Assembly (NCBI GenBank): GCA_031256035.1 | Contig: JAIRRJ010000023.1 | Coordinates: 1-62,949, forward strand | Length of the DNA: 62,949 nucleotides | DNA from: Treponema sp. | GTDB taxonomy: Bacteria > Spirochaetota > Spirochaetia > Treponematales > Breznakiellaceae | Reading direction: 5' to 3' | Shown: piece by piece, positions 765 to 27,000 of the stretch | How positions within the stretch are numbered: the first letter of the stretch is position 1 | Layout: each line of letters opens with the position of its first letter | Made by a program: the position numbers and the translations under genes | The notes under the pieces: model-generated | The model's input: the letters and a program-made list of their open reading frames with translations, nothing else | Told to the model about the DNA's origin: nothing | Database searches by the model: none

Positions 765-953
765 GCCTAACAGGACGGTAACTGTAAAGAAGCTGCTACC
801 GCAGCAATTTTAAGAGCCAGTAGGCGGCTAGGCGCGTACTAAAGTACGACGAAAAACCGCAGCTGGGCTTGCGTCCGCGGCGCGAACGGCTGGATAAACC
901 CAGCCTCATTATATTGCAAGAAGAGGATTTTACTTGTGCCGGAACGTTATGTG
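765..953 (+). other. attC site A (integron recombination site)
   Basis: Left core GCCTAAC (765-771), right core GTTATGT (946-952) preceded by CCGGAAC. The interior is about 190 bp, long for an attC. It contains a perfect CGTACT-AA-AGTACG palindrome (836-849) and further inverted segments such as GCTGGG with CCCAGC. From about 820 onward it is nearly identical to site B. Its two cores do not match each other (GCCTAAC versus GTTATGT), as expected where two different cassettes meet. Confidence 0.7.
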
Positions 954-998
954 AAATGCCTAAAAAACTGAAAATTATGCTTTACAAAAAATAAATGG

Positions 999-1004
999 TA
1001 TAAT
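999..1004 (+). promoter_or_regulatory. -10 box TATAAT inside cassette 2
   Basis: A perfect TATAAT stands 28 bp before the start codon at 1032. The nearest -35-like hexamer, TTTACA (981-986), is only 12 bp upstream, so the -35 is not convincing. It suggests this cassette carries its own promoter rather than depending on an array promoter. Confidence 0.4.
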
Positions 1005-1031
1005 ATAGTATATTTAGGAGGATAAAAAGAT

Positions 1032-2144
1032 ATGTTTAAGCAAATATTAGGAATAGCCGTAATTATCTTTTTGCTTTTTTCATGTAAAAACAAAAAATCA
1101 GATATTGAAATAGTAGAACAACATGAATCTGCCTTAAATGATATTATGAATGAACCTGATATAATTCCTAATGTAATTTATGAATCATTTTCAGAAGACG
1201 CTTTTGATTTTTTTCAGGTAACTGAGTATGAGGAAGTTCCCAAAGAAATATATGACATATTATTTGGAATGGAAGAAAAATATTTAAATGGAAGATTCAC
1301 TGAAATATTGTTTATTCATAAAGTTAATTTTGGTGTTCCTGATGGTGATAATTATATTGTTTTATGGAAGGAACAAATAAGCTATGATCGTGGATACAGA
1401 AAAGAAATTTACCTCTATTCTATTTCCGATAAAATAGAAAAAAGATTTAGGCTGTTTACAGGCCTTCAAGATGAAGCACCTAGTTTTAATATTAGTATTA
1501 TGGAAAATATACCAGGAATACATATTGGTGATATTGGAGCTTCTGTTTTTGATTGTAATGGTGATGGAAAAGACAAATTGTTTTCTTATGGGTTTTACGG
1601 AAGGGGTAATTGGATTCATGTTTTTGGATATAACGAGGAGAAGGATGAGATTGTAGATTACTGTGATGAGTTTAGGGTTGTAATTATCGGCAATAACAGA
1701 GAATATACCCCTGTTGAATTCACATACTATAAAAAAAGGAATGGGTTTAAAGTTTTTAGTTTATTGAAAAGCAGTATGCCGCCTGTAAATCCAATTAATG
1801 ATTATTATGCTTATTACTTCTTTGCATGGAATCGTGAAACAAAACAATATGAGAATATTGGTGAATATCTGGTAGATGAAATAGGTAATGAATATGAAAA
1901 TAGATACAATATACATGATTATGACATTGAGCATTTTATAGCTAGAATTCATGTGGAGTCATTATCAAATATGGAAGCGTTGATTAATCTTGAAGAAATA
2001 ACTGCAAATCATGTAGGAGGCAGAAGTTTTCAAGCAACTATGATGGCTGAAAATGATGAATCTTATTATGGAAGCATATTTGATTTTGACTCTGAAGGTA
2101 AATATTTATATCGAATATGGGATGGTGGTTCTAAAAGTAGATAA
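1032..2144 (+). CDS. Hypothetical lipoprotein of an integron cassette
   Basis: 370 residues. The N-terminus is a lipoprotein signal, KQILGIAVIIFLLFSC, with Cys18 as the lipidation site, so the product should be membrane-anchored and exported. A strong ribosome-binding site (AGGAGGAT, 1016-1023) fixes the ATG at 1032. The middle has VFDCNGDGKDKLF, an FG-GAP or calcium-loop-like DxNGDGxD motif, followed by aromatic-rich beta-type sequence. I do not recognise the family. It is the first of two genes between attC sites A and B and is AT-rich, consistent with acquisition as a cassette. No enzymatic motif is visible. Confidence 0.7.
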   Translation: MFKQILGIAVIIFLLFSCKNKKSDIEIVEQHESALNDIMNEPDIIPNVIYESFSEDAFDFFQVTEYEEVPKEIYDILFGMEEKYLNGRFTEILFIHKVNFGVPDGDNYIVLWKEQISYDRGYRKEIYLYSISDKIEKRFRLFTGLQDEAPSFNISIMENIPGIHIGDIGASVFDCNGDGKDKLFSYGFYGRGNWIHVFGYNEEKDEIVDYCDEFRVVIIGNNREYTPVEFTYYKKRNGFKVFSLLKSSMPPVNPINDYYAYYFFAWNRETKQYENIGEYLVDEIGNEYENRYNIHDYDIEHFIARIHVESLSNMEALINLEEITANHVGGRSFQATMMAENDESYYGSIFDFDSEGKYLYRIWDGGSKSR

Positions 2145-2245
2145 CAATGATATTTAGGCACTGCGCCTAAGAAAACAAGTTGCAGTGCTACATTAAAGGT
2201 ATGTTTGGAGAGCAAAGCCAGGCGTATTTCCATTAGGAGGTATAT

Positions 2246-2908
2246 ATTAATAAGCGAAAAATAGTGCTGATTGGTGTAATTGTGATTGCCGCGATATTAG
2301 GTATAATGCTGGCATTTATGTATTTACTGTTAGCAGGTGCACCGAAAAGGCCTCGTGGAGATATAAGAATATTCAACGAAGAAATGGCAAAGCTCATTCC
2401 TGTTTTGCGAGAAGACACCCCGCTTATCATTGACCAGCTCGAAATCTTGAGGTTGGGTTTATCTGAAAAATCTCCAACCAATGGTGAAAACATTGTATAT
2501 ACGATATATTTCGGTGGGAGTGCATATATCACCGACGGCGTATATCATGTTGATGCTCCAGATGACTATCAACTTAAATATTCATATATAAGTGGTGGTT
2601 CTTTCCATTACAATTACAACTTTGCTGAAAATTATGATAAATTTTCAGTAGAAGAAATTGACGCTATAAATTATCTTTTTTTTAGCGACAAATTACAATT
2701 GAATGTTTCAGCTATTCATTTTTATCAGGATCATAGCCTATGGTATAATGTTGTATTTGCAAGAGAAGGCAGGTTTATGCTCAGCATAGATTATTTAGAT
2801 CCCTGTAACGATAATTCGTGGTTAGAAAATTCTCGGCATCGTGGTGATTATGTAGAGAAATTATGGAAAAATTATTGGATTGTGATGTGTTTTGTTGAAA
2901 AAAGTTAA
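2246..2908 (+). CDS. Hypothetical membrane-anchored protein, probable ATT start
   Basis: About 220 residues. The first canonical start in frame is GTG at 2264, but the only ribosome-binding site (TAGGAGG, 2234-2240) sits 5 nt before an in-frame ATT at 2246. From there the protein begins NKRKIVLIGVIVIAAILG, a proper positively charged start to a signal anchor; using GTG would remove the charged residues. ATT initiation is rare (known for infC), so a mutated ATG is equally likely. One N-terminal helix is followed by about 180 mostly beta-type, Tyr-rich residues outside the membrane. No family recognised. Second gene of cassette 2, closed by attC site B. Confidence 0.6.
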   Translation: MNKRKIVLIGVIVIAAILGIMLAFMYLLLAGAPKRPRGDIRIFNEEMAKLIPVLREDTPLIIDQLEILRLGLSEKSPTNGENIVYTIYFGGSAYITDGVYHVDAPDDYQLKYSYISGGSFHYNYNFAENYDKFSVEEIDAINYLFFSDKLQLNVSAIHFYQDHSLWYNVVFAREGRFMLSIDYLDPCNDNSWLENSRHRGDYVEKLWKNYWIVMCFVEKS

Positions 2909-2938
2909 TTACATGTTAGGTGTGGAGACGGCGGTACG

Positions 2939-3100
2939 GCATATAACAGGACGGTAACTGTACGCCGCTTTGAGGGCGGCTAGGCGCGTACTAAAGTACG
3001 ACGAAAAACCGCAGATGGGCTTATGTCCGCGGCGCGAACGGCTGGATAAACCCAGCCTCATTATATTGCAAGAAGAGGATTTTACTTGCGCCGGAACGTG
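2939..3100 (+). other. attC site B (integron recombination site)
   Basis: Left core GCATATAAC (2939-2947), followed by AGGACGGTAACTG as in the other sites; right arm CCGGAACG ends at 3099. The stretch from GGCGGCTAGGCGCG to the CCGGAACG end is almost the same as in site A. The right core is irregular: instead of GTTATGTG the sequence continues TGTTAAATTTG, so a canonical GTTAAAT lies 3 nt displaced. A 12-bp deletion relative to the start of the next cassette would explain this. Confidence 0.65.
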
Positions 3101-3214
3101 TTAAATTTGTTATCTACACCATTCTGCTGCTTTAAATTGTTCCCCTTTGTGCGGCGGACTTTAGTCCGATTTGTCTCCTGCCCCAAGCGTCACATACCAC
3201 CGGAACGTTATGTG
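3101..3214 (+). other. Gene-free segment ending in an attC right half-site
   Basis: About 106 bp between site B and a second right arm, CACATACCACCGGAACG plus GTTATGTG (3191-3214). That arm matches the right end of sites A and C, but no matching left arm (YAACAGGACGGTA) lies upstream, so it is a half-site. The interval holds a CGGACT-TTAGTCCG inverted repeat and no credible ORF. It is either a noncoding cassette or the scar of a deletion. The remaining 3215-3306 is the AT-rich leader of the next gene. Confidence 0.5.
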
Positions 3215-3306
3215 CCATTGGTTAAATTTGTTTAAAAAAATACTACTGTAAAAACATACTTGCAAAATATAGTATTTGGTATAAACTGGTTATTGGAGGT
3301 AATATT

Positions 3307-4485
3307 ATGCTGAAGTTTTTTCCACTGGCATTTTTTCTAATATTAACAGCTTGTGTAACATCACCAATTGACAAAACAGGCGTTTCCATAGAAGGAACAT
3401 GGATAGATTCTTATGGATGTGAATGGGTGTTTGCTGAAGGGGTTTTTAAGATTTTTGACGGTGAAGCTGCTATTATGGGAGGAACATACACCACAAACGG
3501 CCGTACAATAACTACCCAATTTGAGTTTAAATTTATTGATTTTCTGAATATTCCCGCGGGTATATATTCAAGGGATCAATTGCAGGAAGCTGCCGCAAAA
3601 GCATTATCAATAGATGATATTTGGCTTAAGTACGCCACTCCTATATACTCCACTATGGAGGAAGTTCAGGAATTTTTTAAAGAAAGGTTTGATAAAGATT
3701 TTGCAATAACGACAAATTACTATTCAATACGGGGCGATACACTATTCCTTGACTGGTATGATTGGCCGCTGCTGTCATTAACCTTAATCAGGCAAAATAT
3801 ACATTCAGAGCCTAAAACGGTATTTTTAGGACTTGGCCCGGATTTATTCGCCGTTGCGGAAAACAATACGGTAACGTTTTACGATGCATACCGGGGATAT
3901 AAGGGGGATATATTTGAAGAACACCCCTTTATCTTACCAAGCGGATATACAAGCATTGTGGGATTTGATATGTCGAATCTTGGCGTAATTGTCGGAAATA
4001 CGATGATATATTATTCCTTTACAAACGGGAAAGGCTGGAATGTAAACTCGTCCAGAAACTTCACCTTGCCTTCTGGCTATAAAAGCGTTGTGGGATTTAA
4101 CCGGAATACAATGGGCGTTGTTGTGGGCAACACCCTGATATATTATCGGTATATTGACTCATGGAAGGAAAGACTGAGCCGCGAGATGACATTGCCGAAT
4201 GGGTATGTAAGCATTATAGGGCTTTCTCCATTAAACCATGAAATAGAAGCAATAGGCGTGATTGTCGGCAATACGCTGAAACAATACGTTTTCTCTGACG
4301 GTCTTTGGCAGGAGGAAGAAAGAGCAAAATTTATTTTGCCGGCTGATTACAGCAGTGTAATAGGGCTTTATCTTGGAGGATTTGGCGTGATTGCGGGTAA
4401 CACGGTACAGCTTTACGAATATTGGGACGATGAAAAAGGGTTTGTAAAACACACTGAATTGCCTGAATTTACAATTGAATGGTAA
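3307..4485 (+). CDS. Hypothetical repeat lipoprotein of an integron cassette
   Basis: 392 residues. Signal MLKFFPLAFFLILTAC gives lipidation at Cys16. GGAGG (3295-3299) precedes the ATG. Residues about 25-170 form one domain (EGTWIDSYGCEWVF at its start), resembling small lipocalin-like lipoprotein domains. From about residue 175 there are five degenerate repeats of about 45 residues, each ending LPxGYxSxxGF....GVIVGNTxxYY. Such repeats suggest a propeller or solenoid, although the family is not recognised. The cassette starts at the core at 3207 and ends at attC site C, whose left core GCACATAAC is the exact complement of its own first bases, so the boundary is well supported. Confidence 0.7.
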   Translation: MLKFFPLAFFLILTACVTSPIDKTGVSIEGTWIDSYGCEWVFAEGVFKIFDGEAAIMGGTYTTNGRTITTQFEFKFIDFLNIPAGIYSRDQLQEAAAKALSIDDIWLKYATPIYSTMEEVQEFFKERFDKDFAITTNYYSIRGDTLFLDWYDWPLLSLTLIRQNIHSEPKTVFLGLGPDLFAVAENNTVTFYDAYRGYKGDIFEEHPFILPSGYTSIVGFDMSNLGVIVGNTMIYYSFTNGKGWNVNSSRNFTLPSGYKSVVGFNRNTMGVVVGNTLIYYRYIDSWKERLSREMTLPNGYVSIIGLSPLNHEIEAIGVIVGNTLKQYVFSDGLWQEEERAKFILPADYSSVIGLYLGGFGVIAGNTVQLYEYWDDEKGFVKHTELPEFTIEW

Positions 4486-4535
4486 AAACAAAAAAAGCAT
4501 TATTGGTGGTATCTGTGAAAAGAGCAGCGCAAACT

Positions 4536-4637
4536 GCACATAACAGGACGGTAACTGTAAAGAAGCTGCTACCAACGAAGGGTGTTTACACCCTTCATAA
4601 CCTGCCCAAACTGTAATATACCGCCGGAACGTTAGGC
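4536..4637 (+). other. attC site C (integron recombination site)
   Basis: Left core GCACATAAC (4536-4544), then AGGACGGTAACTG; right arm ATACCGCCGGAAC and right core GTTAGGC (4631-4637), a perfect GTTRRRY. The interior is shorter than in sites A and B and has a clean GAAGGGTG-TTTA-CACCCTTC hairpin. The inner arms CGGTA and TACCG pair, matching the L''/L' boxes of attC sites. At about 100 bp this is the most canonical site in the window. Confidence 0.75.
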
Positions 4638-4677
4638 GAAATAGTGGCTAAATTTTAATAAGTATATTAATAACCAA

Positions 4678-4712: not shown

Positions 4713-5429
4713 ATGAAGTGGAAAATATGGTTCTTGTTGTCATTTTTGATATTTACCTCTGCAAATTACGGAGCTGATGTGTATACTGTTCCTCTAAACT
4801 TTGGACGGGAAAATCTGCCAGTACAGTTTGAAAGATTGCATATAGAACCAAATGGTTTGTACATTAATCATTATGGCGATGGTTATTATGTGGTAACATT
4901 GTTCTTAGAATTAAGTGTAAAGGGAAATTGGCGTAAAACCAAAGTTGAATTAAAACATTATCATTGGACAAACAGGCAGGAAGTAAATTATCCACTTGTT
5001 TTTGAAAAATATCTTTTGGCTTTGGAAATTAACGAAGGTAATGTTAGCCTGACTGTAGAAAGGCTAGATTTCGACAAATTTTTTTATGCGTGGGATGTTG
5101 TTATAGAAAACTTGTCCATTTCCTTCCTCGCGCCTGTTCACGCAGATTATCCACGTCCGCCACCTGGTCCGCCACCTGGGGTTCTGCAGGATGAGAATCA
5201 AGATTCCGCTACGAGTTCAAATAGTTATAGAATCCGCTTAGCAACCCGTAGCAACAGCCAAGTATTTTCATTTTCTAAAGTTTACTTTTTGAGAAGCGAA
5301 AGCGAGTTAAGGGCTTCTAACGACCAGTGGTTTAAAACAGGTGAAAACGGTGAACTTGTGCTGGATTGGGAAGGCTATCGTATTACTATAGACAGGACAA
5401 TAAAAATCAAGGTTTCAAAGATACCATAA
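4713..5429 (+). CDS. Hypothetical exported protein of the last visible cassette
   Basis: 238 residues. A Sec-type signal, MKWKIWFLLSFLIFTSANYG, is followed by a mature domain rich in beta-type sequence. A proline-rich stretch (PRPPPGPPPG) near residue 150 separates two parts, so it may link two domains. No lipobox. The gene follows attC site C by 75 bp, and no closing site could be found after its stop. It has no ribosome-binding site; see the promoter at 4678. No family recognised. Confidence 0.65.
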   Translation: MKWKIWFLLSFLIFTSANYGADVYTVPLNFGRENLPVQFERLHIEPNGLYINHYGDGYYVVTLFLELSVKGNWRKTKVELKHYHWTNRQEVNYPLVFEKYLLALEINEGNVSLTVERLDFDKFFYAWDVVIENLSISFLAPVHADYPRPPPGPPPGVLQDENQDSATSSNSYRIRLATRSNSQVFSFSKVYFLRSESELRASNDQWFKTGENGELVLDWEGYRITIDRTIKIKVSKIP

Positions 5430-6673: not shown

Positions 6674-6807
6674 AAACCCCGCCACATATAAAAATGTAGT
6701 CCCCCAAAAATGCTTGACAAAACCATAATATTTAGCTTTCATATTGTTATGAAAAAGGTAATTATTATTATACTAAATCACAACACTTGTCTTTAAAAGG
6801 AGTAAAT

Positions 6808-8901
6808 ATGAAAAAGCCTGTGATTAACAAAAGAGTTTTGTTATATGTAGTTATTTTCATCATCCTTATTTTTAACGCATGTAAAGACAAAAAGACCAAT
6901 ACTTTCCATGAGCTGGATTCTCATAATTCAAAAAAAGAAGAAAAGGTGGAATTTTCCGGTGTATTTGAAGAGGATTCCCATGAACCGGCTGCTGTTTTTC
7001 TGAGTGAACTTGATTGGGAAAGTGTCAATAATGACATGATCAATTCAAGAGGCGGTTTCCGGTGTGTTGCATATGGTGATAATAAGTGGGTTGCAGCCGG
7101 CGGTTCAATCGATATCTTTGGTTACAGAAAAATGGCATATTCCCATGACGGCGAGAACTGGATTGAGATCAATGTAAACAATATATTCGGCAAAATGATC
7201 ATGAGTATTGCCTATGGCAATGGCAGGTGGTTTGCGAGCAGTATGGACGGCAAAACGGCATATTCAACAGATGGTGAAAATTGGACAAGAATGGATATTG
7301 GTAGAATATTTGATTGGTACACACATGTTAATTTTGTCTATGGCGGGGACAAATGGATTGCGTATCAAACGGCTTACATGGGTAAGATGGCATATTCCTA
7401 TCAAACGGCTTACATGGGTAAGATGGCATATTCCTATGACGGCGAGAACTGGATTGAAGTTAATATCGACAAAAATACATTCAGATTTGGTATTAGTGGT
7501 ATCGCGTATGGTAACGGAAAATGGATAGCATTTGGCAGTGTTAGAACAGAACATAATCCTGATGATCCTTATAAAATAGCGTATTCGTTAGACGGTGAAA
7601 ACTGGACGGAAACAGATATTGAAATATTCTCCCATGGAAGCTGTTATATTTCCTGCATTGCCTTTGGCGATAATAAATGGATTGCTGCCATTGGTGGAAA
7701 CAAGAGGAAAATGTTATATTCCAATGACGGAGAGAATTGGATCGAGGCTAGTGCCAATATATTTAATCCTTATAACAATGATACCATCGATAATATTATT
7801 AGAGGTAATAACAGGTGGATTGGAATAGGATATGGGACAATGGTATATTCTACCGATGGCAAAAATTGGATAGCTGATGATAGTGTGCCCTTCGAAAGCA
7901 TTCACGCCATCGCCTATGGCGGCAATAAGTGGGTTATAGTCGGAGAAGATGAGCGTTCCGGCAGAATAGCATATGCCATTGATTATGGTTTGGAATACAC
8001 CCATGGGTCTTTCAGCTGGAAAGTAGATCAACACCGCGGTGCTATGATTACACGCTATAGTGGAAATGGCGGCGCAATTGCAATACCTGCAAAGATAGGC
8101 GGGATGGCGGTAACTTCCATTGGAAAAAATGCGTTTAAGGAAAAAAGACTAACCAGTGTTACAATACCTGACAGCGTCACCAGCATCGGGGAGAGAGCAT
8201 TTAGTGGCAATCAACTGACCAGTGTTACAATACCTGACAGCGTCACCAGCATCGGGGAGGGAGCATTTGGTAGCAACCAACTGACCAGCATTACCATCCC
8301 AAACAGGATTACTTCCATTGGGGATTATGTGTTTGATGACAACCGGCTGACCCATGTTACTATCCCAAACAGCGTTACTTCTATTGGGCTTGGCGCATTT
8401 AGAAGAAATAACCTAACCAGTGTTACCATCCCTGACAGCGTTACGAGTATCGGGCGTGAAGCTTTTCGTAATAACCAACTGACGAGTGTTACTATCCCTG
8501 ACAGCGTTACGAGTATCGGGTATGAAGCTTTTCATAAAAACCAATTGACCAGCGTTACCATCTCTGACAGCGTTACGAGTATCGGGCGTGCCGCTTTTAG
8601 TGAAAACCAACTGACGAGTGTTACCATCTCTGACAGCGTTACGAGTATCGGGATTTTCGCTTTTAGTGAAAACCAACTGACGAGTGTTACCATCCCTGAC
8701 AATGTTACGATCGAAGCGGGTGCGTTTGCTGATAACCGCCTTACCAGCATAACTATTGGGGCAAATGTGTCGTTTAAGTGGGAGCAGTGTATACTTGAGC
8801 ACAATGATGAAAGTTTCAACCTGGTGTATAATCTAGGCGGTAAACGCGCAGGAACATACACCCGTCCCAATGCTGAAAGTAGAAAGTGGACACGGAAGTA
8901 G
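6808..8901 (+). CDS. Lipoprotein: WxxxG/YSxDGENW repeats plus BspA-like leucine-rich repeats
   Basis: About 697 residues from ATG 6808, chosen because AAAAGGAG (6796-6803) precedes it. Lipoprotein signal ends FIILIFNAC. Residues about 70-400 carry six or seven units of roughly 45 residues with IAYGxxxWIA and YSxDGENWxE, typical of BNR/sialidase-like beta-propellers. Residues about 430-650 are nine 22-residue leucine-rich repeats of the LRR_5/BspA type ([18 protein letters not shown]). Such proteins bind host or partner-cell surfaces in Treponema and Tannerella; that role here is inference. A perfect 36-bp tandem duplication (7363-7434) doubles [13 protein letters not shown] single-domain paralogue lies at 9767. 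Confidence 0.82.
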
Positions 8902-24034: not shown

Positions 24035-27000
24035 TTAGAACGGTCTTTCCGACAGATACTTGTACTCTTTCCACACCCGCTCGGCTTGCGCCTTGGCTTT
24101 GGCAAGCAGGGCATCGGCGCGGTTGGGGTCAGCCGCTTTCAGGCTCTTGAAGCGCACTTCCTTGTACATGAAATCTTCAAGCGCCGTGGTCGCCTCTTTG
24201 GAGTCAAGCTGGAAGGGATTCTTGCCCTGATCTTTAAGCCGCGGGTCATAGCGGTACAGGGGCCACAGGCCGCTGGAAACCACCGCCTTGCCCTGATCGA
24301 GACCCTTGCTCATGTCGATGCCGTGGTTAATACAATGCGAGTAGGCGATGATAATCGAGGGGCCGTCGTAGGACTCAGCTTCACGGAATGCTTTGATCGT
24401 CTGCGCCATGTCCGCACCCAGCGAGATTTTGGCGACATACACATAGCCGTACGCCATTGCCATCGCACCCAAATCTTTTTTGACAATTTCTTTTCCCGCG
24501 GCGGCAAACTTGGCTATTGCGCCGACCGGCGTAGACTTGGACATCTGTCCGCCGGTGTTGGAATAAACTTCGGTGTCCAGCACGAGAATGTTCACATTTT
24601 TGCCCGATGCGATAACATGATCGAGGCCGCCGTAACCGATGTCGTAGGCAAAACCGTCTCCGCCGAATACCCACACCGACCGCTTGATAAAGTAGTCGGC
24701 AAGTGAAAGCAACAGTTTCGCCGTGGGCTTGCTGTCGTTTTTGAGAGCAGCTTTCAGCGCATCAACATTTTTCCGCTGTTCATCAATGGCGGCGTCATCA
24801 GCTTGGGTGTTGGCAAGCAGCTTGTCGATGATGCCGGCGGCGATGCCTTCGCTCTTTGCCTGCGCGCCCATTTCACGGGCGTGGATCGCCAGCTTGTCGC
24901 TCGTGAGCCTGAAGCCCATACCGAATTCGGCGGCGTCTTCAAAGAGGCTGTTCGACCACACCGGGCCGCGCCCGATGGCGTTCTGGCAGTAGGGAGTAGT
25001 GGGCAGGTTGCCGCCGTAAATCGAAGTACAGCCGGTGGCGTTGGCGATAAGCGCGCGGTCGCCGAAAAGCTGTGACATCAGTTTCACATACGGAGTTTCA
25101 CCGCAGCCGCCGCACGCCCCGGAGAATTCAAACAAGGGACGTTTGTAGGCAAGGGCTTTCGCCGTTTTCAGTTCACCTTCCGCCGGAGTTTCGGGAAGAC
25201 TCAGGAAGAAATCCCACACCGCAACCTGCTCTTTGTGGAATTCATGATCATCGGAATAGGATTTCCATGAGAGGGCGCAGGGCTTGCTCGCATCTTTTTT
25301 GTTTTCGCCGGTCATGGGGCATCGATTGAAACAAACGCCGCATTCGTAGCAGTCTTCGGCGGCAATAACCAGCGTGGCTTTTTGTCCGTCCACCGCTTTG
25401 GGTTTGATCGCCGTAGTCTGGAAACCCTTGGGGGCTTTCGCGGCATCGGCATCGCTGACATTCTTCATGCGGATACAGGCATGGGGGCAAACCACGGAGC
25501 AGTTACCGCACTGGATGCATACATCGGGATTCCAGACCGGCACCCGCTCGGCAACCGAGCGTTTTTCGTACTGGCTGGTTGCGGTTGGGAAGGTTCCGTC
25601 TTCTGGGATTTTGCTCACCGGCAGGGTGTCGCCTTCCTGAATCGACATGGTTCCCAAAGTCTCTTTGATCCAATTGTCTTTGGCGGTAGCGAAGGGTTTC
25701 TTCATGCGCATATTCCCTTCGGCCTTACCGGGGTACTTCACCTCTTCCATCGCGTTCAGCGCAGCGTCCACGGTCTTGTAGTTCTTTTCAACAATGTCCT
25801 TGCCCTTTTTGCCGTAAGAGTGTTCGATATGCTCCTTCATGAGCTTGACCGCTTTGGCTTCGTCAAGTACGCCTGAAATTTTGAAATAGGCAGCCTGCAT
25901 GACCGTGTTGATACGGTTACCCATGCCGGTTTCCCGCGCAATGTGCGCCGCGTCAATGACAAAGAACTTTACCTTCTTGTCAATGATCCGCTGCTGGGCT
26001 TCCACAGGGAGTTCCTTCCATACATCAGCCGCTTTGAAGGGGCTGTTGAGGAGGAAGGTGCCGCCGTCCTTGATCTTCGCCAACATGTCGTAGGTTTCCA
26101 TGTAGGAAAATTTATGACAGGCGAGGAAATCCGCTTTGGTAATGAGGTAGGGGCGGCGTATTCTGCCTTTGCCGAAGCGCAGGTGCGAAACAGTAAAGCC
26201 GCCTGATTTTTTGGAGTCGTAGGAGAAATACGCCTGAGCGTTGAGATCAGGCCTCGCCTCGCTGATGATCTTGATTGAGTTCTTATTCGCGCCGACCGTG
26301 CCGTCAGAACCGAGTCCGTAGAACAGCGCTTCGTTCATGCCCTCTTCGGCAAGGACAAAGTGCTCATCGTACTCAAGGCTCTTGCCCTGCACATCGTCTT
26401 TGATGCCAACGATGAACTGGGCAATTTTTCTGCCGGAAAGATTGTCGAATACCGACTTGACCATCGCTGGGGTAAATTCTTTTGAACCGAGACCGTAGCG
26501 CCCGCCCAGTACCAGCGGATATTCTTTGAAGGGCGCTTCTTTGGCAAACATCATCTCGCCGATGGCGGTGCGTACATCTTCGTAGAGCGGCTCGCCCAGA
26601 GAACCCGGTTCCTTGGTGCGGTCGAGCACGGCGATTGACTTAACCGAAGCTGGCAGCGCTTTAACAAAAAGCTTCGCGTCAAAGGGGCGGAACAGGCGCA
26701 CTTTCACCATGCCGACTTTTTCGCCCTTGCTTACCATGTAGTCGATAGTTTCTTCGCAAGTTTCCGCGCCGGAACCCATGATGATGATTACTTTCTCAGC
26801 ATCTTTCGCGCCGTGGTAATCAAACGCGTGATAGGCTCTTCCGGTGATTTTCGCGTATTTATCCATCTCCGCCTGCACGATACCGGCGACTTTATCGTAA
26901 TACTGGTTCACCCCTTCGCGTCCCTGGAAATAGGTATCCGGGTTTTGCGCCGTACCCCTAATGCTGGGTTTTTCGGGCGTAAGGCCGCGCAGACGGTGGG

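Follow-up and report, generated by a model that had tools for sequence, protein, structure and literature searches.

An eroded cassette-array tail in a Treponema relative and a tyrosine recombinase without the integron-integrase patch

The 62,949-nucleotide stretch of Treponema sp. DNA analysed here (the window, which is contig C6 from its first base onward) carries three attC-type sites with gene cassettes between them, close to its start. By its sequence it reads as the eroded tail of a larger chromosomal integron, in a Treponema relative that probably inhabits termite guts. We consider it very probable that such attC arrays are operated by a tyrosine recombinase without the patch, the additional IntI-specific domain with its I2 helix. 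The system appears to work like an integron and yet not to be an IntI integron, since the defining domain was tested for and is absent. This reading draws on covarying sites, their arrangement in arrays, the adjacency of the patchless recombinase, cassette-specific ends, and a duplicated cassette. A preliminary description of the window had recognised three attC-type sites in a spirochaete, which is borne out by further copies, a recombinase near one copy, the complementarity of cassette ends and the array context.

Sites, arrays and cassette ends

The left-end motif AACAGGACGGTAACTG stands at positions 769, 2945 and 4542 of the window. A search of the whole genome (3.12 Mb), allowing up to two mismatches and using the same pattern backwards as control, returned 14 matches, ten of them exact and three of these in the window, against three for the control; about 0.002 exact copies are expected by chance, by our own estimate. 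More copies, which the preliminary description had proposed to look for, are therefore present. All ten exact copies and two of the three with one mismatch begin site-like sequences, some of them cut or decayed, while a one-mismatch copy on contig C30 and a two-mismatch copy on C8 do not. Several copies lie at contig ends, so the array has probably been split up in assembly.

Do these copies have a common structure? Eighteen sites from this genome (G000) and two others (G008, G023), picked as complete and of usual length, were aligned over 197 columns. RNAalifold derived a consensus fold with 53 pairs, 22 of which show double compensatory changes: an outer stem with a bulged A is followed by three arms, and intact sites are about 170–190 nt long. 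Double-changed cells number 77, compared with 24.1 in shuffles (all 500 are beaten) and 4–14 in slid controls. The slid versions are the better control because related sequences inflate the shuffles, although the derivation of the fold from this very alignment also gives it an advantage over them. Covarying attC arms, R''/R' and L''/L', are present in the 18 sites of all three genomes.

Long covarying hairpins with copies on many contigs, some of them single, would also be compatible with dispersed elements, either similar to miniature inverted-repeat transposable elements (MITE) and repetitive extragenic palindromes (REP) or ends of single-strand transposons, lying between unrelated genes and serving no recombination. 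We regard this as very improbable. The two ends of one segment are complementary to each other and specific to the cassette, the sites in the main arrays of finished genomes all lie on one strand, and the cognate first start was located near the recombinase in all nine cases discussed below.

A site model built from genus sites detected at least one site in 30 of 39 genus genomes (E ≤ 1e-4) and, at E ≤ 1e-5, in 108 of 145 genomes and 44 of 56 genera of the family sample. In each of three finished genomes, a main array is accompanied by one or two extra clusters or lone sites. G064 (4,059,867 bp) has ten same-strand sites at 2033219–2061612 and three more near 484–488 kb; G234 (4,646,109 bp) has 40 same-strand sites at about 3522.0–3559.7 kb, within the 53 kb examined, with two further sites near 327–328 kb and one at 4184 kb; G079 (3,855,671 bp) has two sites downstream of its recombinase match and three elsewhere. 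Elsewhere the sites are spread over many contigs, but contigs break at these repeats, so we do not claim many array loci per genome. According to an excerpt of PMC3607928, the integrons of Treponema denticola, T. vincentii, T. succinifaciens and T. brennaborense have the same layout, with intI pointing towards the array, attI in between, cassettes in the same direction, and AAC/GTT cores. They differ in having a canonical IntI and attC sites of 63–132 bp, compared with three-armed sites of about 170–190 nt here.

Some individual sites depart from this arrangement. Close to the two ends of contig C103, sites on opposite strands (L023, 412–3341, plus strand; 25115–25129, minus strand) face each other across about 22 kb. 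In G023, the sites at L200:3987, L202:2898 and 990 (minus strand) and L203:3721 have an unusual left flank resembling TTTTTCTGCAACCTC in place of the cassette-specific R'', and perhaps form a separate class of inserted single sites. The G079 site regions L340, L341 and L342 have 1.8–3.3 kb in common at 96–99.7% identity, perhaps an insertion element adjoining the sites.

The cassette ends distinguish these arrays further. Past GTT/AAC, the cognate ends of 60 consecutive site pairs agree at 10.12 of 12 positions versus 6.27 for non-cognate ends, a difference reached in none of 5000 within-genome permutations. A position profile of 53 of these pairs (leaving out the seven of L338, L340, L341, L350, L351 and the window) gives match fractions of 0.83–1.00 at positions 1–7 and 9–14, declining to 0.57 by position 17. 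Position 8 is unpaired in 53 of 53, the start always having an A, which stands opposite C in 50 pairs and opposite A in three. The complementarity reaches about 17 nt past GTT and exceeds the limit of about 8 bp of an IntI-type R box. As positions 10–17 vary freely among cassettes (non-cognate match 0.25–0.30), the two ends of one cassette appear to evolve together. In canonical IntI arrays of the same order, to which this comparison was confined (48 pairs, three genomes), ends match at positions 1–5 only, that is over 5 nt as against about 17 nt.

A trace of movement is found in G064, where one 1,278-bp cassette is present twice, about 25 kb apart, 99.8% identical and bordered at GTT. The sites ahead of the two copies have different interiors, and immediately beyond GTT the sequence following the copy is divergent. 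Such a copy with GTT borders implies that cassettes have moved fairly recently.

Of 53 cassettes, 49 contain an open reading frame (ORF) of at least 50 amino acids, and in 48 of these the longest ORF is on the cassette strand. Pfam searches with 48 cassette proteins gave 44 families, which among the matches listed include GNAT (three proteins), PIN (two), PemK/MazF, HicB, Fic, NUDIX, RibD_C and putAbiC. GNAT, PIN, PemK, HicB, Fic and NUDIX are cargo kinds known from integrons. The idea that the cassettes form a pool of exported proteins, put forward in the preliminary description, is not supported. Four of the five window ORFs in the export test look exported, yet a simple heuristic applied to ORFs of at least 120 amino acids found export-like N-termini in 17 of 41 cassette ORFs (mostly G234) and 24 of 80 outside arrays (mostly the window's own genome), which is no enrichment (Fisher p 0.23).

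A patchless recombinase beside the arrays

Contig C33 of the window's genome reads, in order, uvrA (by eye), a recombinase, a cassette start, the first cassette, and a site truncated by the contig end. An integrase had been named beforehand as something to look for; what lies near a site is indeed a tyrosine recombinase, but not an IntI, as the defining patch is absent. The protein comprises 387 amino acids when its start is taken at a conserved MEVVY (the open frame is longer). It scores 205 against a cut-off of 265 for the integron integrase (TIGR02249) and 213 against 220 for XerA. Judged by the recombinase, the closest GenBank-named relatives are metagenome-assembled genomes (MAGs) of Treponema, Spirochaetes and Spirochaetaceae, whose isolate codes we take to denote termite samples.

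An alignment of 148 distinct recombinases, including 45 of this termite clade, 69 distant relatives and 30 canonical IntI, locates the difference. The spacing from KDR to HxLRH is 58–65 residues in the 45 clade sequences and 55–62 in the 69 distant ones, versus exactly 100 in 30 of 30 IntI. The active site R, K, H, R, H, Y is complete in 44 of the 45 clade members, the other having Y for the last histidine, and is kept in all but one of the distant relatives. Of the 148 sequences, 89 were used for a tree: 45 distant relatives, 18 IntI, the first 22 clade members and all small groups. In it, the clade and other patchless sequences fall on one side of a branch (support 100/99) and IntI forms another group (100/100), with moderate support only for the deeper order. 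This grouping argues against the patch having been lost recently, though the long branches leave that unsure.

A modest AlphaFold model (pLDDT 74.5, pTM 0.43) contains no helix of at least four residues in 292–310 and finds its best fold match in XerA (5hxy), followed by IntI4 (2a3v). With VchIntI (2a3v, with VCR attC), second best by entry, the recombinase shares the catalytic fold and matches in sequence on both sides of the patch; chain residues 180–249, the patch region, remain unaligned and have no counterpart in the recombinase. XerA/XerC-like proteins (5hxy, 4a8e) align with it in one continuous stretch without the patch, but differ in that the recombinase family has an SPLD-type C-terminus and an N-terminal extension. 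Such proteins are dif/dimer-resolution enzymes and are not known to run cassette arrays. The N-terminal extension of about 100 amino acids (L022, about 2100–2431, minus strand) is common to the clade, the order's canonical IntI and Bacteroidota relatives, and by eye has a W...W.P-like pattern. Its identification as a HARP domain was rejected, as two of ten pieces matched weakly (E 0.09 and 0.13), below significance.

The recombinase lies next to the arrays. Among 52 patchless loci, examined mostly with 1.5 kb flanks and with some genomes counted twice, 17 have a site at E ≤ 0.01, compared with none of the 30 canonical IntI and none of the 3 Xer loci. In G064 the gene ends at 2032385 and the same-strand sites begin at 2033219, and in G234 the 40-site array starts 1.9 kb downstream of the gene (3519227–3520063). 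When the cognate start of the first site of each array was sought past the recombinase (L105 not included), one GTT 143–1168 bp past it came out in nine of nine genomes, with 11–16 of 17 positions matching and 6–10 for the next best. Ahead of this attI-like GTT, several genomes have a sequence resembling ATTCGCATA-AAGGA-GTT, which by eye mirrors a common cassette start and resembles the core site of a recombinase, with its pair of inverted arms.

Could a true IntI, missed in the drafts, act on these sites, with the adjoining recombinase being a bystander? The cassette layout, the G|TT crossover and the type of cargo are as in canonical integrons, and the order is rich in canonical IntI, with a match in 63 of 194 genomes and 55 over the cut-off. 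Such an ordinary integron is nonetheless improbable. The patchless recombinase occurs in 37 of 194 genomes and coincides with IntI in one, where 12 are expected, in two samples of 194 run with the same settings, assumed identical since the listed handles agree, and uncorrected for shared ancestry. None of the five IntI-bearing family genomes has such a site, the finished G064 and G079 carry sites and gave no IntI match in the order-sample search, and among the 11 genus members listed in that sample, the window's genome included, there was no canonical IntI match at E ≤ 1e-40. The cassette ends are unlike those of canonical arrays, and the attI lies near the patchless gene. In the one genome with both enzymes, G078, canonical IntI is on its contig C33 and the patchless recombinase on its contig C11.

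A second alternative takes the sites as relics of a lost integron and the recombinase as a dimer-resolution or Xer-like enzyme that happens to be their neighbour. The decay of the window's own sites and the many family genomes with sites and no recombinase match are in line with this. By the definition in an excerpt of IntegronFinder 2.0 (PMC9024848), the window tail alone would, if detected, be a cluster of attC sites lacking IntI (CALIN); unlike a CALIN, it has a dedicated recombinase on another contig. Contig C77 of the same genome carries two further Xer-like genes (no dif search was made), so that the patchless recombinase is probably not needed for dimer resolution. The adjacency recurs across genera, distant relatives in other phyla have the end signature beside them, and the 99.8% identical cassette copy with GTT borders implies fairly recent movement. 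We give this explanation little credence.

We therefore return to a patchless recombinase running the arrays, against which several observations weigh. The window's three own sites fold scarcely better than shuffles (z −1.48, −1.06 and −1.46 for sites A, B and C, equalled by 16, 29 and 23 of 200 shuffles), in contrast to an intact site elsewhere in this genome, on contig C69 (z −6.47, 0 of 200 as good). Two of the 60 cassette pairs mismatch, L340 (1 of 12) and L341 (0 of 12). At 35 of the 52 recombinase loci the flank examined has no site, the G079 recombinase match covers part of the protein only, and in G009 and G011 the nearby site is on the strand opposite to the recombinase. At E ≤ 1e-50, no recombinase appears in 63 of the family's 108 site-bearing genomes; conversely, 8 of 53 genomes with a recombinase lack a site. 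Nearly all are drafts of many contigs, and fragmentation may account for both. No recombination has been observed, the trace being a cassette copied with its GTT borders. Finally, Messier and Roy, as cited in excerpts of PMC9668308 and PMC7790495, found the additional domain to be needed for activity, a result that weighs against recombination of attC by a patchless enzyme, barring some substitute for the domain.

What might substitute? From the features described, we infer recombination activity, a single-stranded substrate and a role for the mismatch. One attC strand would fold into a stem, with three arms in the intact sites of the clade. The recombinase would cut at G|TT of the folded site and join it to the attI near its own gene, so that circular cassettes would enter at the head of the array, and recombination between two attC sites would excise and reshuffle them. 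Within the circular form, its two ends could pair over about 20 bp with the fixed A·C mismatch. This long arm and its mismatch may replace the I2 helix and the extrahelical bases of IntI: they would identify the strand and the folded site, and give circles preference as donors.

Beyond the order and known integrons

The end signature with its unpaired position 8 is also found at 19 of 71 loci of distant relatives (34 pairs), versus two loci (two pairs) in reversed sequence; some of those with one pair may be chance matches. No such pair occurs in five canonical stretches (100 kb). A generic repeat scan gave right-sized repeats at 24 of the 71 loci, but some of these resemble protein repeats; the end signature is more stringent. 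Arrays downstream of the gene are found in Flavobacterium enshiense, Pollutibacter soli, a Flavobacteriaceae MAG and Mesohalobacter, as well as in the order relatives G055 and G056. F. enshiense has six sites enclosing five cassettes, each with cognate ends and no pairing at position 8. Not every locus conforms. At L105, ends are complementary apart from this position, which is mismatched in two of seven cassettes. The cognate-end finder detected ends in one of three pairs at L118 and three of four at L091, and no convincing ones at L076, L083, L066, L099, L109 or, in the intervals used, L347.

On balance, we lean slightly towards patchless integrons being a separate and widespread lineage of cassette capture, in which the long end stem and the A·C mismatch would allow recognition of the fold without an I2 helix, whether as the stock that gave rise to IntI integrons or as an independent solution. 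Its scope would be Spirochaetota and Bacteroidota, with clear arrays, and Uhrbacteria and Ignavibacteriota, with the signature beside related recombinases; perhaps others, such as Nitrospirota, belong here too, on what are so far single hits.

How does this relate to described systems? In the open-licence literature, as far as titles and the beginnings of abstracts go, nothing was recognisable as describing this patchless system. An excerpt of Smyshlyaev et al. 2021 (PMC8138268) describes an integron-like subgroup with patchless members, there without linked arrays, sites or cassettes, and calls the insertion essential for integron function. IntegronFinder recognises IntI through PF00589 combined with a profile for the IntI-specific domain, as stated in an excerpt of PMC9668308, so surveys keyed to that domain would list systems of this kind, if at all, as attC sites lacking an integrase. 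The available part of PMC7790495 holds the I2 helix to be the innovation that enabled integrons and names missing intermediates as a limitation. If a patchless enzyme does run attC arrays, it would provide the missing comparison for the I2 helix, the origin of integrons would become testable, and integrons would reach further in Bacteroidota, spirochaetes and other phyla than has been estimated.

The termite-gut treponemes are a case in point. G064 and G079 are presumably T. primitia ZAS-2 and T. azotonutricium ZAS-9, an assignment that is unconfirmed. Wu et al. 2013 (PMC3607928, in the part available) report no integron traces in termite-gut T. primitia and T. azotonutricium; the search used the T. 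denticola intI and attC, and an ab initio attC method is reported there for two other species. Should the two finished genomes be those species, this published absence would be overturned.

The window's own sites and cassettes

The window's sites, cassettes and genes up to position 5429 are on the plus strand. The genus-built model recovers site B with 41.4 bits, site C with 27 bits and site A weakly (51 nt, 19.1 bits, E 0.035), and no site after 4637 at E ≤ 1. Rfam at gathering scores gives a tRNA as its sole match in the window, and none of five window ORFs tested matches Pfam at 0.01.

Site A (762–952; model match 765–815) is decayed: its R'' AAC is at 769–771 and its crossover GTT at 946–948, and L' is not complementary to L''. 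Upstream, two overlapping ORFs in different frames (174–744; no Pfam family for 174–563) are remains of the gene of the cassette ending at this site. Site B (2938–3214; model match 2941–3213) is larger than first thought. It had been given as about 160 bp, with a right end at about 3090–3099 (CCGGAACGTG) that turns out to be broken; the intact CCGGAACGTT follows some 110 bp onward at 3200–3209, which makes the site about 270 bp long. The common right ends proposed for the three sites, CCGGAAC-GTT with the GTT at 946, 3207 and 4631, are otherwise there. Site C (4535–4638; model match 4538–4637) is about 100 bp long, with reduced interior arms.

The long, nearly identical middle of sites A and B is likewise real, comprising 125 nt at 97% identity (823–947 and 2975–3099), although it represents two decayed copies and not an intact architecture; by eye, both sites lack an L' arm complementary to AGGACGGTAACTG. 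A search of 39 genus genomes found this interior complete nowhere else, with only shorter and weaker pieces. With complete copies in the window only, an inserted element was rejected as its origin.

The first window cassette (947–3207) is probably a fusion of two. It contains two genes, of 370 amino acids (1032–2144, with a lipoprotein-like N-terminus) and 214 amino acids (2264–2908, with a hydrophobic N-terminus), neither with a Pfam match; a decayed R''-like cassette end, about TTTAGGCACTGCGCCTAAG, lies between them at 2157–2176, and the outer ends match poorly (all by eye for the ends). The second cassette (3208–4631) has one gene of 392 amino acids (3307–4485), again with a lipoprotein-like N-terminus and no Pfam match. 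Its ends are complementary, as had been noticed for the regions around 3207 and 4536: GTTATGTGC at 3207 pairs with GCACATAAC ending at 4544 in 9 of 12 positions beyond GTT/AAC.

After site C, the cassette start GTTAGGCGAAATAGTGGC (4631–4648) is complementary over 18 nt, at 89%, to the cassette end before site A (754–771). A near-identical end pair (GTTAGGCGAAATGGTGGC) is present in G008 on contig C137 (L197), and popular end types may accordingly be common to several species. The last site is followed by a gene for an exported-looking protein of 238 amino acids (4713–5429). Further downstream, positions 6787–8901 encode a protein of 704 amino acids with many copies of a repeat, which we take to resemble BspA-type leucine-rich repeats.

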